In this document: in pieces, positions 56,731 through 61,653 of the stretch | How positions within the stretch are numbered: position 1 is the stretch's first letter | How the letters are laid out: every line of letters begins with the position of its first letter | Source: Deltaproteobacteria bacterium ADurb.Bin207 | GTDB lineage: Bacteria > Myxococcota_A > Polyangia > Polyangiales > Polyangiaceae | Length of the DNA stretch: 64,000 bases | Reading direction: 5' to 3' | Assembly: GCA_002070115.1 (NCBI GenBank) | Contig: MWCO01000003.1 | Span: 62,001-126,000 of the forward strand | The notes under the pieces: generated by a model | What the model saw: the letters and a program-made list of their open reading frames with translations, nothing else | Told to the model about the DNA's origin: nothing | Databases searched by the model: none | Made by a program: the position numbers and the translations under genes

Positions 56731-57756
56731 TTATTCACGCCAGAAGAATTTCCATGGATTATGCTTGAGGTCCCGGGCCATCTCTTGCAAATCGTCGAAT
56801 AGCTGCTCGTCCATGACCAGGGCGCCCATGGTACCTTTGCCGGTGCGAATATGGGCGACGACAGCTTGGGCGTCGGCTACGGCGGCTTTGGCGCGACTGG
56901 CAATTTCCGATACGTCTTGGATGGTTTGCTTGATTTTCCGCTGTTCTTCAGGGGAGCCGACCGTGGAAGACAGGCGGTTGACGTTCGCCATGGTGGTTCG
57001 CGCATCGCGCAGCAGTGGTTCGCTATCCCGTGCGATGGCGGAGGAGGCGTGGTCGATGTTGTTGATGATGCGGTTGACTTGAGGGTCATCGACGTATCGG
57101 GTGCGTGCAGCGCGAACGAGTTCATTGGTTTCGATGGTGATGGTTTCGACGTTTTCGGCGATACGATTGAGTCGGTCGCGATTTTTGTCGAAGAACTCAC
57201 CGGTACTGGTCAATGTACTGTGCAGGCCTTTGAAGGTTTCTTCGATTTGCGCACGATTGTCTCGCAATGCGGAGATGGTGGTGTGAAGCAATTCATAACC
57301 TTCCGCGAGCAATAGATCGAGACGAGGGGGATCAAGTCCTCGCACGATGGCATTTTCCGCGAGGGCGGGTCGGTCTCTGGTTCCTGGATCGATCGCGAGG
57401 AATTGTTCACCCAGCACGCCTTGCGAAGTGACATAAAAGACGGCGTTTTCTCGAACCGCTTCTTGATGGCGTGTTTCGATGGCCAACGTCATGCGCACGA
57501 GGGCTGGACGCTGTTCGTTCGCCTGGGGTTCGACGCCTCCACGGAATTGGATTTCTTTGATTTTTCCGACGGTAATCCCGGCGATGCGCACGGGAGAACC
57601 GGATTGGATGCCCCCTGGATTGTCGAAGTCGACGAAGATCCGGTAGGTAGGTTGGAAGCTCATTCCTCCCATGAGCACGATGAAGCCAGTCAGTATTCCA
57701 ATTGCGATGAGGATCAGGAGACCAACTTTGACTTCGATGGAACGCGGGTTCGCCAT
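56731..57756 (-). CDS. mlaD: MCE-domain protein (MlaD-like) of a lipid ABC transporter
   Basis: A 341-residue inner-membrane-anchored protein. The start ATG 57756 (MANPRSIEVKVGLLILIAIG) leads into one membrane helix. The MCE domain is about residues 40-120: YRIFVDFDNPGGIQSGSPVR then IAGITVGKIKEIQF, then SQGVLGEQFLAIDPG. A long helical region (NELVRAARTRYVDDPQVNRI, LLRDARTTMANVNRLSS) makes the C-terminal needle-like part. MCE rings carry phospholipids across the periplasm. It is ten bases after the second ATPase gene and is the only MCE protein here. No MlaA, MlaB or MlaC gene is in the window. Confidence 0.9.
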   Translation of the reverse strand: MANPRSIEVKVGLLILIAIGILTGFIVLMGGMSFQPTYRIFVDFDNPGGIQSGSPVRIAGITVGKIKEIQFRGGVEPQANEQRPALVRMTLAIETRHQEAVRENAVFYVTSQGVLGEQFLAIDPGTRDRPALAENAIVRGLDPPRLDLLLAEGYELLHTTISALRDNRAQIEETFKGLHSTLTSTGEFFDKNRDRLNRIAENVETITIETNELVRAARTRYVDDPQVNRIINNIDHASSAIARDSEPLLRDARTTMANVNRLSSTVGSPEEQRKIKQTIQDVSEIASRAKAAVADAQAVVAHIRTGKGTMGALVMDEQLFDDLQEMARDLKHNPWKFFWRE

Positions 57757-57766
57757 GCTCCCCTCA

Positions 57767-58510
57767 TTATAAGTCCATGGGGCCTTCAGCGTAGCCGTTC
57801 GTGAACTGTTCGACGACGCCGTCGGTGGTGTTTCGGAATTCCTCCCGGGTGCCAAGGAGCCGAACTTGCCCCTTGTACAGCATCACGATCCTGTCGGCGA
57901 TACCAAAGATCGAGACGAGGTCGTGAGAGACGACGATACTGGTGACTCCGAGGGTATCACTCAGTTCGCGAATGAGCTTGTCCACGCGGCGTGCGTTGAC
58001 GGGATCGAGGCTGGTCGTTGGTTCATCGAATAAAATATACTGGGGGTCCAGAGTCAGGGCGCGTGCGATGGCCACGCGTTTTCGCATGCCATCGCCCAAC
58101 TCCGCCGGGAAGCGGTCCGCGAACGCTTCCATATGTACCTTTTCGAGCAGTTTGATCGCTTCGTGTTCCGCACTACGGCCTTTCAGATTTTTGTGTTTTC
58201 GTAACGGAAGCGCCACGTTTTGTGCGCAAGTCATTGAATCGAAAAGCGTCGAATGCTGAAAGACCATCGCGCATTTTCGACGTACGGCCATCATCTGAAG
58301 TTCGTCGAAACGCGAGATTTCCTGCCCATCGAGCCAGATCTCCCCCTGGTCGGGATAGAGCAAGCCGACGAGGTGTTTGATGAGCACGCTTTTTCCAACG
58401 CCGGAGGCACCGATGATGAAGAAGACCTCGCCATCATGGACGTCGAAAGAAACACCCTGGAGCACATTTTTAGGTCCGAAGCTCTTATGGATGTTTCGAA
58501 AGGAAATCAT
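57767..58510 (-). CDS. mlaF: ABC transporter ATPase, MlaF-like (second copy, degenerate signature)
   Basis: A 247-residue ATPase. Walker A IIGASGVGKSVLIKHL, Q-loop VFQHSTLFDSMT, Walker B YILFDEPTTSLDP with catalytic Glu, and H-loop VVSHDL are all present. The signature that should read LSGGM is LGDGM (ELGDGMRKRVAIARALTLDP). Its stop region leads to mlaD after ten bases, and its start overlaps the stop of the second permease gene by four bases (ATGA). The lesion complements that of the first ATPase (60134-60865). Confidence 0.9.
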   Translation of the reverse strand: MISFRNIHKSFGPKNVLQGVSFDVHDGEVFFIIGASGVGKSVLIKHLVGLLYPDQGEIWLDGQEISRFDELQMMAVRRKCAMVFQHSTLFDSMTCAQNVALPLRKHKNLKGRSAEHEAIKLLEKVHMEAFADRFPAELGDGMRKRVAIARALTLDPQYILFDEPTTSLDPVNARRVDKLIRELSDTLGVTSIVVSHDLVSIFGIADRIVMLYKGQVRLLGTREEFRNTTDGVVEQFTNGYAEGPMDL

Positions 58511-59334
58511 CGTGCAAAAAAGATGAAAAAGCCTGCGACGCTAATGATCAAGTCGAGAAAAACGACCGCAAGGGAAGAGTTGACGACCGCGCGGGTGGTT
58601 GCCCATCCGACGCCTTCGGACCCTCCGAACGTGGACAGACCACAATATCCCGAAACGACGGGAATGGCAGCGCCATAAGCGACGCACTTGGTCAGACAAA
58701 TGACGACATCGCCGGTTTGCACCATGCTGACGTCGAAGAAAGTACGGAAGGGAACGTCGAAGAATGATTTTGCGGTGACAGCGCCGGCACAGAACATGAC
58801 CGTGGTGATCCAGATGATGAGGCAGGTGGTCATGACGATGCTGGCGATGAATCTTGGTTTGATGAGAAAGTCGATGGGGTCGGCGGCGCACATGCGCAGC
58901 GCGTCGACTTGTTCGGTGACGACCATGGAACCGATTTCGGCGGCGATGCCGGCCCCCACGCGAGTCGCAATGATCATGGCGCCGACGGAGGGAGCGATTT
59001 CTCGAATGAGAAGTTGCAAATACGTGGCTCCCATGCGGGAGAAGTCGGGAAGGAGGCGTTGTGCTTGGACGCCGGTTTGATAAATGCCGATGAGGCCGAT
59101 GAAGCCCATGACGACAGTGACGAAGAAGACGGATTTATTTCCGATCTCGAACATCTGCTGGACGATGGCGCCCGGTTCCCGTTTTCCGCGAACGACATAG
59201 TACAAGGTGCGAACGAAAACCGAGTACATATCGCGGGCGGACCGAAGCAGATCGATAGAGGAATCGCCTAGCTCAGCGAGTGATGTCTCGATACGTGACG
59301 CGGGGGAGTTGGGCGATACCTTGGTGACTTGCAT
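58507..59334 (-). CDS. mlaE: MlaE-like permease (second copy)
   Basis: A 275-residue membrane permease. Start ATG 59334 (MQVTKVSPNSPASRIETSLA); the frame is open upstream into the first permease gene. The conserved family region EIGSMVVTEQVDALRMCAAD precedes the coupling helix, and YVVRGKREPGAIVQQMFEIG, GVQAQRLLPDFSRMGATYLQ and RVGAGIAAEIGSM fit MlaE. About five membrane segments. It starts two bases after the first permease stop and overlaps the second ATPase gene by four bases. Confidence 0.9.
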   Translation of the reverse strand: MQVTKVSPNSPASRIETSLAELGDSSIDLLRSARDMYSVFVRTLYYVVRGKREPGAIVQQMFEIGNKSVFFVTVVMGFIGLIGIYQTGVQAQRLLPDFSRMGATYLQLLIREIAPSVGAMIIATRVGAGIAAEIGSMVVTEQVDALRMCAADPIDFLIKPRFIASIVMTTCLIIWITTVMFCAGAVTAKSFFDVPFRTFFDVSMVQTGDVVICLTKCVAYGAAIPVVSGYCGLSTFGGSEGVGWATTRAVVNSSLAVVFLDLIISVAGFFIFFAR

Positions 59335-59336
59335 GT

Positions 59337-60137
59337 TCAACCGATGATGAAGGAAACGAAGTAATCGAGGATGAAGATACCGGTGGCGGAAGCAACGACG
59401 CCGGCATTGACGGCTCGACCGACTCCTGGGGCTCCTCCTTTTACCGCGAGGCCAAAATAACACGAGGCGATTGCCATCATCAGTCCAAAGAACGCGCTTT
59501 TAATCAAGCCATGGGCGACATCGCCGAAGTTGAGCAGACCGCTGGTAAGGCCGTTGAGAAATACGCCATATTCGACGCCGAGCATGGCTTTGCTAGCGAT
59601 GGCAGCGCCAAATAAAGCGAGGGCATCGGCGTAAATATTGGCAATGACAAGGGTAAGTACGATGGCGAGGAGCCGAGGCGCGATGAGGAATCCAAGGGGA
59701 TCGATGGCAAGGATGCGCAGCGCGTCGATCTGTTCGGTGACGACCATGGTTCCCAATTCGGCGGTGTTATTTGCGCCGACTCGTCCGGAGATCATGAGCG
59801 CGGTGAGCAAGGGGCCCAACTCGCGCAAGACGGAGAACCCCGCTCCCCATCCGAGCAGACCGTAGGCCCCATATTGTTGCACCATGGGAGCCGCTTGAAT
59901 GACCGCGATGGCTCCCACGAAAAGCGCCGTGACGACCACGATGGGAGTCGATTTGACACCCATTTTATACATATTCGTTTTGAATTCGTTCCAATCGAAG
60001 TTTGCACGGGCGATGCGCCAAAGCACGCGGACGAGAAGCACGGCCATGCCACCCGCAACCTCGGACATATCGAATAGGTTTTTGCCAATTCGAAAGGTAA
60101 GGGACTCTTGGGCAGCGTGAGGAGATGCAAGACTCAA
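59337..60137 (-). CDS. mlaE: MlaE-like permease (first copy)
   Basis: A 266-residue membrane permease. The start TTG 60137 (a rare start) overlaps the stop of the first ATPase gene as TTGA, with CGGAGGG upstream. Conserved segments: GAIAVIQAAPMVQQYGAYGL, SGRVGANNTAELGTMVVTEQ, then IDALRILAIDPLGFLIAPRL. It shares with the second permease the ELG/EIG-x-M-VVTEQ-ALR core but differs elsewhere, so the duplication is old. The two permeases may pair as a heterodimer. Confidence 0.9.
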   Translation of the reverse strand: MSLASPHAAQESLTFRIGKNLFDMSEVAGGMAVLLVRVLWRIARANFDWNEFKTNMYKMGVKSTPIVVVTALFVGAIAVIQAAPMVQQYGAYGLLGWGAGFSVLRELGPLLTALMISGRVGANNTAELGTMVVTEQIDALRILAIDPLGFLIAPRLLAIVLTLVIANIYADALALFGAAIASKAMLGVEYGVFLNGLTSGLLNFGDVAHGLIKSAFFGLMMAIASCYFGLAVKGGAPGVGRAVNAGVVASATGIFILDYFVSFIIG

Positions 60138-60865
60138 AGGGGGCCCTCCGTCAATCCGTGGACGAATTGTCGAACGTACTCATTGTTGCTGTTTTGCGCT
60201 TGCTCCGTGGTTCCGTCGAAGATGATCTTGCCGTCAAGCATCATCCCAACCCGATCGGTGACCGTCAGCAATCGGTCGAGGTCCGACGAAACCATGATGA
60301 CGGTAGCGTCTCCTTTTTCTTTTTTGAGCAGGTCGAATATTTTTTGGGAGCTGACAGGGTCGAGTCCCGCGGCTGGCTCGTCGTAAATGAGGATGGGTGG
60401 TCGAGCGACCGTGGCACGAGCCACTCCGACGCGTCGTTTTTGTCCGCCGGAGAGGCTGGGAGGGCTGCGGTCCTGCATGCCAGGCAAGGCGACAGCTCGC
60501 AGTCGTTCGTCGACACGGTCTTGAATCTCTTGTTCCGTCATATCCTTGTGAAGGCGTCGCAAGGGGAAGGCAATATTTTCGCCGACAGACAGGTGGTCGA
60601 ACAGGGCATTGTTTTGGAAAGCGATACCGAAGCGTTTTCGGAAGCCTTGCAGCTCTAGTTCGGACATTTGGAGAAGGTCGTGACCATCGACAAAGATTTT
60701 TCCTTTGTCGGGTCGCATCAATCCCACGACGTGTTTGAGCAAAACGCTTTTTCCGGCAGCGCCAGGGCCAATGAGACCATACAGGCAGCCTTTGGGGACG
60801 GTCAGGTCGATACCGCGAAGGACAGGCTCACGAAACGCCTTTTGCAAGCCTTGGATTGCGATCAC
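60134..60865 (-). CDS. mlaF: ABC transporter ATPase, MlaF-like (first copy, H-loop lost)
   Basis: A 243-residue ATPase from ATG 60865, overlapping the SctJ gene stop (ATGA). Walker A LIGPGAAGKSVLLKHVVGL, Q-loop AFQNNALFDHLS, signature PSLSGGQKRRVGVARA and Walker B ILIYDEPAAGLDPVSS are canonical. The H-loop reads VIMVSSDLDRL, with serine where the histidine (VSHD) should be; the codons there are TCG TCG. Such a loss normally lowers hydrolysis at the site formed by this subunit's Walker motifs. Confidence 0.9.
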   Translation of the reverse strand: MIAIQGLQKAFREPVLRGIDLTVPKGCLYGLIGPGAAGKSVLLKHVVGLMRPDKGKIFVDGHDLLQMSELELQGFRKRFGIAFQNNALFDHLSVGENIAFPLRRLHKDMTEQEIQDRVDERLRAVALPGMQDRSPPSLSGGQKRRVGVARATVARPPILIYDEPAAGLDPVSSQKIFDLLKKEKGDATVIMVSSDLDRLLTVTDRVGMMLDGKIIFDGTTEQAQNSNNEYVRQFVHGLTEGPL

Positions 60866-61653
60866 ACCTGCTCCCCGCTTGTGATTTGTTCTGCCATGGC
60901 AAGCCGCATGCGGCGCCAGAGATATAGGATTGTTGACGCCAGCGTGAGCATGAGCAGAAGAGCTATGCCGAGGGTAACTCGAAGTCTGGTGGCACTGCCT
61001 CGAGTCACCGAAAATGGACCGATTTTTGTGATTTCGCGGGAAGAAAGATCGGGGGAATCGGGCCGACGAATGGTGACGACGGACACATCCTGGGCAGCCA
61101 ATCCAGCGACAGCTCCTGCGACGAGATGTTGGACTTGGCTTTCGGTAATGGGTGGGGAATCGCCCCGATGACGCAGCAGTACAGAGGCCGAAGGGGGCTG
61201 GGAAGGTTGGCCTGGAACGACATCGGTGGAGGGGACGGAAAGGTGTACCCGCGCACCCAAAACGCCATCGATACTTGCGAGGGAGCGTTCTAAATCCCCA
61301 CAGATTCCAGCTACATACTGAGCATGCTCGGCCAGAGGGCTCGGGACGAGGGAGCTTTTGCCCACGGCATCGATGACGCCTGGCGCATGTCGCGGTGGCA
61401 GGTCGTTGTCACGCAATGTGGCAATGGCTGACGCTGCCTCGCCGCGGGAAACCGAGACTTGATAGCGTCCCTCCACCGCAGGATCGGTTTCCTTGGTAGC
61501 GTCGATGCCGGAACGATTGAGAGCATCCGCCACCAGATTGGCGTCGCGCTCGTCCAATCCGCCAGCCACGGGAACGGAACACCCAACCACAGCGCATGCG
61601 ATGGCCATACAAGCCATCACTTTTACAGTTGTGGTTACGGCGTTCTTGCGCAT
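60862..61653 (-). CDS. sctJ: SctJ/YscJ/FliF-family ring-forming lipoprotein (orphan)
   Basis: A 263-residue lipoprotein with lipobox VVGCS in VMACMAIACAVVGCSVPVAG. Residues about 33-95 (LDERDANLVADALNRSGIDA, YQVSVSRGEAASAIATLRDN) and 110-200 (SPLAEHAQYVAGICGDLERS, LASIDGVLGARVHLSVPSTD, SASVLLRHRG, TESQVQHLVAGAVAGLAAQD) are the two ring-building domains of SctJ. A C-terminal membrane helix (LGIALLLMLTLASTILYLWR) and basic end complete the type III secretion layout. No other secretion gene is nearby. It begins three bases after the upstream pseudokinase stop and overlaps the first ATPase gene, so it is firmly part of this transporter run. Confidence 0.85.
   Translation of the reverse strand: MRKNAVTTTVKVMACMAIACAVVGCSVPVAGGLDERDANLVADALNRSGIDATKETDPAVEGRYQVSVSRGEAASAIATLRDNDLPPRHAPGVIDAVGKSSLVPSPLAEHAQYVAGICGDLERSLASIDGVLGARVHLSVPSTDVVPGQPSQPPSASVLLRHRGDSPPITESQVQHLVAGAVAGLAAQDVSVVTIRRPDSPDLSSREITKIGPFSVTRGSATRLRVTLGIALLLMLTLASTILYLWRRMRLAMAEQITSGEQV

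Follow-up and report, generated by a model that had tools for sequence, protein, structure and literature searches.

A putative heteromeric MCE-family ABC transporter with one degenerate ATP site in Myxococcota and Bdellovibrionota

The window, that is the whole stretch of 64,000 nucleotides analyzed here, carries on its minus strand six tightly packed genes in the order J–F1–E1–E2–F2–D (Table 1). The gene pairs J/F1, F1/E1 and E2/F2 overlap by 4 bases each. Both permeases match PF02405 (219.8 bits for E1 and 174.5 bits for E2), the MCE domain PF02470 was found in D with 60 bits, and PF00005 matches both ATPases, F1 and F2. For E2 the ATG at 59334 is the likely start, the longest reading frame extending to 59463. 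By its permease, MCE-domain and ATPase content the operon can be assigned to the MCE-family (MlaFED-like) ABC transporters, with the movement of lipids as putative function. Compared with the NCBIfam equivalog model for MlaF, F1 and F2 reach scores of 160 and 196 bits, below the cut-off of 441 bits, and are in that sense not MlaF proper. A gene for MlaB (STAS) was not recognized within the operon. Concerning the first gene of the operon, 30 of 158 loci have a YscJ/SctJ-like gene no more than 300 bases ahead of F1 on its upstream side; J is the sole YscJ/FliF homologue of its own genome, and a gene of the SctV/FlhA type is located on a different contig.

Table 1. Genes of the operon and nucleotide-binding motifs of the two ATPases (positions within the window).
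Feature	Position	Strand	Description	Source
J	60862..61653	-	SctJ/YscJ-like lipoprotein, first gene of the operon	
F1	60134..60865	-	MlaF-like ABC ATPase, Walker side degraded (GPGAAGKS, VSSD), signature LSGGQ intact	
E1	59337..60137	-	MlaE-family permease, partner of F1 by gene order	
E2	58507..59334	-	Second MlaE-family permease, partner of F2 by gene order	
F2	57767..58510	-	MlaF-like ABC ATPase, Walker side intact (GASGVGKS, DEP, VSHD), signature LGDGM degraded	
D	56731..57756	-	MCE (MlaD) domain protein, likely ATG start at 57756	
F1 Walker A	60746..60769	-	GPGAAGKS, Gly at fourth motif position replaced by Ala36	codons
F1 signature	60440..60454	-	LSGGQ, intact	codons
F1 Walker B	60374..60385	-	YDEP, catalytic Glu present	codons
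F1 H-loop	60281..60292	-	VSSD, His replaced by Ser194	codons
F2 Walker A	58388..58411	-	GASGVGKS, intact	codons
F2 signature	58085..58099	-	LGDGM, Ser replaced by Gly139 and Gly by Asp140	codons
F2 Walker B	58019..58030	-	FDEP, intact	codons
F2 H-loop	57920..57931	-	VSHD, intact	codons

The motif states were taken directly from the codons. They bear out two changes described in an earlier sequence-only reading, according to which F1 keeps LSGGQ and has VSSD in place of VSHD, and F2 keeps VSHD and has LGDGM as its signature. A third lesion, the exchange of glycine for alanine at residue 36 in the P-loop of F1, had been missed. F1 retains the lysine and serine of the P-loop, the aspartate of Walker B, the catalytic glutamate and the glutamine of the Q-loop. 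An alignment with the solved MlaF from Pseudomonas (7ch8) is free of gaps at the H-loop, with VSHDL in 7ch8 and VSSDL in F1; the histidine is not displaced to another place in F1. Structure prediction gave models with a pLDDT of 94.6 for F1 and 93.9 for F2. For both proteins the structural ranking was headed by MlaF structures, and the overlays cover approximately the whole chain: residues 1-247 of the F2 model correspond to residues 8-254 of 6xbd_I (rmsd 1.5 Å), and the F1 model overlays 7ch8_J across 241 residues (rmsd 1.5 Å). Residues 193-195 of F1 and 195-197 of F2 are equivalent in position, at a strand–helix junction of the predicted secondary structure. Within the ungapped range between F2 and 6xbd, Asp140 falls on Gly147 of E. 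coli MlaF, which is named as a signature residue (PMC7367683).

It is established that both subunits of an ABC dimer contribute to each ATP site, one with Walker A, Walker B and the H-loop and its partner with the signature (PMC7756269). All lesions of F1 and the lesion of F2 therefore share one composite site and leave the second one intact, as had been concluded from the two lesions first noticed. That the first site is altered holds true, but its earlier designation as "dead" is too strong: F1 probably still binds ATP, and because it keeps the P-loop lysine and serine and the Walker B aspartate we prefer the term degenerate. F1/F1 or F2/F2 dimers would have two damaged sites and the combination F1/F2 has exactly one complete site, from which we infer an obligate heterodimer. 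Very probably F1 and F2 pair in this way on a permease of E1 and E2, one of their two sites being degenerate and the other catalytic.

The resulting model is a heteromeric MCE-family transporter, MlaFED-like and of the type VIII fold, for which lipids would be the cargo. F1 and F2 would associate head to tail below a permease heterodimer of E1 and E2, which in turn would be positioned under the MCE ring. At the degenerate site, composed of Walker A, Walker B and H-loop of F1 opposite the signature of F2, ATP would probably be bound and hydrolyzed slowly or not at all, so that the site could serve as a structural clamp. The canonical site, with the Walker motifs and H-loop of F2 opposite the signature of F1, would drive the cycle. 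The sequences, their lesions, conservation, co-retention and shared ancestry are observed here, and the dimer pairing, ATP occupancy, hydrolysis at a single site, lipid cargo and direction of transport are predictions built on them.

For the analysis of conservation the comparison set comprised the class, the phylum and a second phylum; the genus offered no further genomes. Within the class 289 genomes were searched and 80 regions were read, and the usual gene order was F1-E1-E2-F2-D. All 71 F1 sequences of the class show V/I-S-S-D in the H-loop, and 70 of them carry the alanine in the P-loop. An intact LSGG was never seen in F2 of the class, while its Walker A, Walker B and H-loop were intact wherever readable. 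In the other Myxococcota F1 usually keeps the P-loop glycine and the histidine and has an aspartate instead of the catalytic glutamate (DDP), and the signatures of F2 read GDG, VGPSE, LGPG and similar. The Bdellovibrionota combine DDP and TND (histidine to asparagine) in F1 with ISYG in F2, and their gene order is F1-F2-E1-E2-D. The loss of the H-loop histidine, on which the sequence-only reading had relied, applies to part of the Myxococcota, and elsewhere the same site is altered by the exchange of glutamate for aspartate. An E2 gene with 51% identity to that of the window was also present in a metagenome assembly labelled Klebsiella pneumoniae (L178), which is most likely mislabelled or chimeric.

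Counting distinct sequences, the signature glycine at the third position is kept in F1 in 147 of 147 cases, and at least one lesion of the Walker side occurs in 146 of the 147. These lesions affect Walker A and H-loop (82), Walker B (33), Walker B and H-loop (23), Walker A, Walker B and H-loop (3), the H-loop alone (3) or Walker A and Walker B (2), with one sequence showing none. The same glycine is lost in all 141 distinct F2 sequences, and the number of Walker-side lesions among the readable ones is 0. Two entries for one gene (L340 and L356), considered as F2 with LSGG, were rejected as canonical single-type MlaF and dropped from the F2 tally; four generic ABC ATPases from the vicinity of the loci (L161, L200, L209 and L250) were also left out. 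Both ATPases could be read in 126 genomes, with the F2 signature glycine lost in all 126 and the P-loop glycine, glutamate or histidine of F1 lost in 125, so that both halves of the same site are damaged in 125 of 126. Neither the Walker side of F2 nor the signature glycine of F1 was ever damaged, in agreement with the canonical state claimed for the remaining site. The expected co-occurrence across related genomes also holds, the only orthologue with one side intact being the F1 of genome G488, where F2 is damaged and F1 has DEPTAGRDP and none of the three lesions. In this genome (L322, 1501 onward; L244, 2455 onward), for which the contamination is 7%, DEPTAGRDP represents an unusual D-loop with an exchange of leucine for arginine.

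Since for F1 as well as for F2 the lesions are shared by about 140 distinct sequences, the pattern is not due to chance. The letters of the lesions differ by clade, as would be expected if a duplicated ATPase pair were drifting under relaxed selection and the lesions were without functional meaning. Such drift is extremely improbable, because across two phyla and nearly 290 distinct sequences the other site was never hit, the altered residues are invariant over deep divergence (S193-S194-D195 of F1 without exception in a class alignment of 18 sequences), and scattered orthologues with an intact site were not found among close relatives. It could also be that F2 is the sole working ATPase, as a homodimer which tolerates LGDG, with F1 acting in regulation or assembly and not in catalysis. 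Other ABC proteins can cope with degenerate signatures, and conservation is higher in F2 (mean column identity 73-74%) than in F1 (58-62%). Nevertheless, we regard a working F2 homodimer as improbable, since the signature glycine of F1 is retained throughout despite the erosion of the Walker side, which is expected only if F1 completes the site of its partner.

A variant of the heterodimer, not exclusive with it, assumes that the altered site is slow or regulatory and that both sites hydrolyze ATP. The F1 of Polyangia contains the catalytic glutamate, which is present (DE) in 86 of the 147 F1 sequences, and sites with aspartate in place of glutamate can hydrolyze slowly (PMC7756269). However, the F1 sequences of Polyangia with this glutamate are also devoid of the H-loop histidine and usually of the P-loop glycine, and the loss of the F2 signature is universal; hydrolysis at both sites is possible but on the unlikely side.

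As controls 24 single-type MlaF proteins were inspected. The Walker side was intact in all 24 and the signature in 23, the sole control with an altered signature being one of the two domains of a tandem-fused ATPase. Canonical MlaF proteins from the own genome and the own phylum retained all motifs, and controls in which a single ATPase goes with a single permease were likewise canonical.

In phylogenetic trees F1 and F2 form separate clades. For each of the four proteins the counterparts from Myxococcota and Bdellovibrionota group together, with SH-aLRT supports of 88 (F1), 92 (F2), 92 (E1) and 96 (E2); the cross-phylum clade of F2 includes one canonical sequence at its base. The simplest reading of these quick trees with their moderate supports would be that the heteromeric system predates the split of the lineages or was moved as a whole between them. 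Due to common descent the sequence counts given above overstate the evidence, and we determined parsimony counts on a tree that was built without the motif columns. The minimum number of changes between the intact and the lost state is 2 for the P-loop glycine, 3 for the Walker B glutamate, 4 for the H-loop histidine and 2 for the signature glycine, all in the same site. This amounts to a minimum of about 11 state changes on one quick tree, some of which may be reversals. What is telling in these sequences is that one type of lesion gives way to another without repair of the site. As different clades break the site by different substitutions, the degeneracy itself appears to be selected, and we consider it likely that Myxococcota and Bdellovibrionota harbor an ancient, previously undescribed and fully heteromeric class of MCE transporters in which the degeneracy is actively maintained.

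We also analyzed whether the genes are retained together, calling presence by E-values below 1e-45 for E2 and below 1e-58 for F1. Across the order F1 and E2 were both present in 107 genomes and both absent in 37. The 11 discordant genomes are all at most 93% complete; among the 92 genomes with a completeness of at least 94%, 75 contained both genes, 17 neither and 0 only one. Linkage is not universal, as F1 lies far from the remaining genes in genomes such as G270 and G197. Several large complete genomes have F1 at a distance of hundreds of kilobases and F2 inverted, with every lesion retained. One Myxococcota family has the genes spread over three contigs, which carry F1+E1, E2 and F2+D, respectively, and all expected lesions are present. 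Lone E2 loci (L228, L229, L233 and L235) had been considered as cases of partner loss, which was rejected because the partners are located elsewhere in the same genomes. In none of the genomes was the pair found to be replaced by a lone ATPase with one permease, an outcome that would have spoken against the sequence-only reading, and the genomes with scattered genes retain F1, F2 and E2.

The gene neighborhood itself, with F1 adjoining E1 and E2 adjoining F2, could point to F1-E1 and F2-E2 as homodimeric transporters in their own right that share one operon and one MCE protein, and the family with F1+E1 and F2 plus the MCE gene on different contigs would fit such an arrangement. On the other side each homodimer would contain two damaged sites, the co-retention in near-complete genomes is complete, and most split genomes keep E1 beside E2 and have moved F1 alone. 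Two independent transporters are accordingly hardly probable.

The MlaFEDB system of E. coli, Pseudomonas and Acinetobacter (type VIII ABC) has the MlaF-like fold, the MlaE permeases and the MCE protein in common with the operon described here. It uses one species of MlaF with canonical motifs, in contrast to two ATPases, two permeases and one degenerate site. In solved structures MlaF forms a homodimer and has a handshake extension at its C-terminus (PMC7367683); this extension is absent here, F1 and F2 ending at the equivalents of residues 252 and 254 of the 269 residues of MlaF. In mycobacterial Mce1 a heterodimeric permease of the MlaE family (YrbE1A/YrbE1B) is likewise combined with MCE proteins, but its ATPase is, again in solved structures, a homodimer of MceG (PMC9882608), whereas in the present system duplication and asymmetry extend to the ATPase. 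Among ABC exporters, heterodimers with a degenerate site are known from ABCB2/B3 (TAP), TM287/288, BmrCD and the ABCC family; their lesions are split between the partners as here, with the signature changed in one and Walker B (glutamate to aspartate) and/or H-loop and/or Walker A changed in the other (PMC7756269). The exporters have fused membrane and ATPase domains, in contrast to the separate subunits of the MCE/MlaE type with a different transmembrane family. By sequence, F1 and F2 show the features of the degenerate-site class of ABC proteins: the ATPases are non-identical, one signature is altered, the opposite Walker side is altered and the other site is canonical. A literature search limited to openly licensed papers revealed no report of a heterodimeric or degenerate MCE ATPase, in line with the earlier remark that an asymmetric heterodimer was not known for MCE transporters. 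As far as we found, split-lesion degenerate sites are known from exporters and a case from the MCE family is not.

A possible directional or processive advantage of degenerate ATP sites has been studied almost only in exporters. If the proposed heterodimer is correct, an MCE transporter that divides the labor in this way would indicate that this design arose outside the exporter folds. The two sites could be inactivated separately, which would provide a handle on the direction of lipid flow in MCE systems and on the ATP spent per lipid. The turnover of lesion types between clades represents a natural experiment on interchangeable changes. For annotation, such pairs of ATPases should be taken as belonging together even across contigs. 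The host groups, Myxococcota and Bdellovibrionota, are predatory and social soil bacteria.

Other MlaF-like ATPases were also encountered. The own genome contains two canonical MlaF-like ATPases and two other MlaE permeases on separate contigs (L341-L344); one of these ATPases adjoins an MCE gene, and linkage does not show which pairs work together. Tandem-fused two-domain MlaF-like ATPases are present in G474 and G488 (L345, 3793-5397, minus strand; L346, 3181-4878, plus strand). Their first half has a canonical LSGGM and their second half the signature ISNG with an intact Walker side, and they possibly represent a second, partly asymmetric MCE ATPase.
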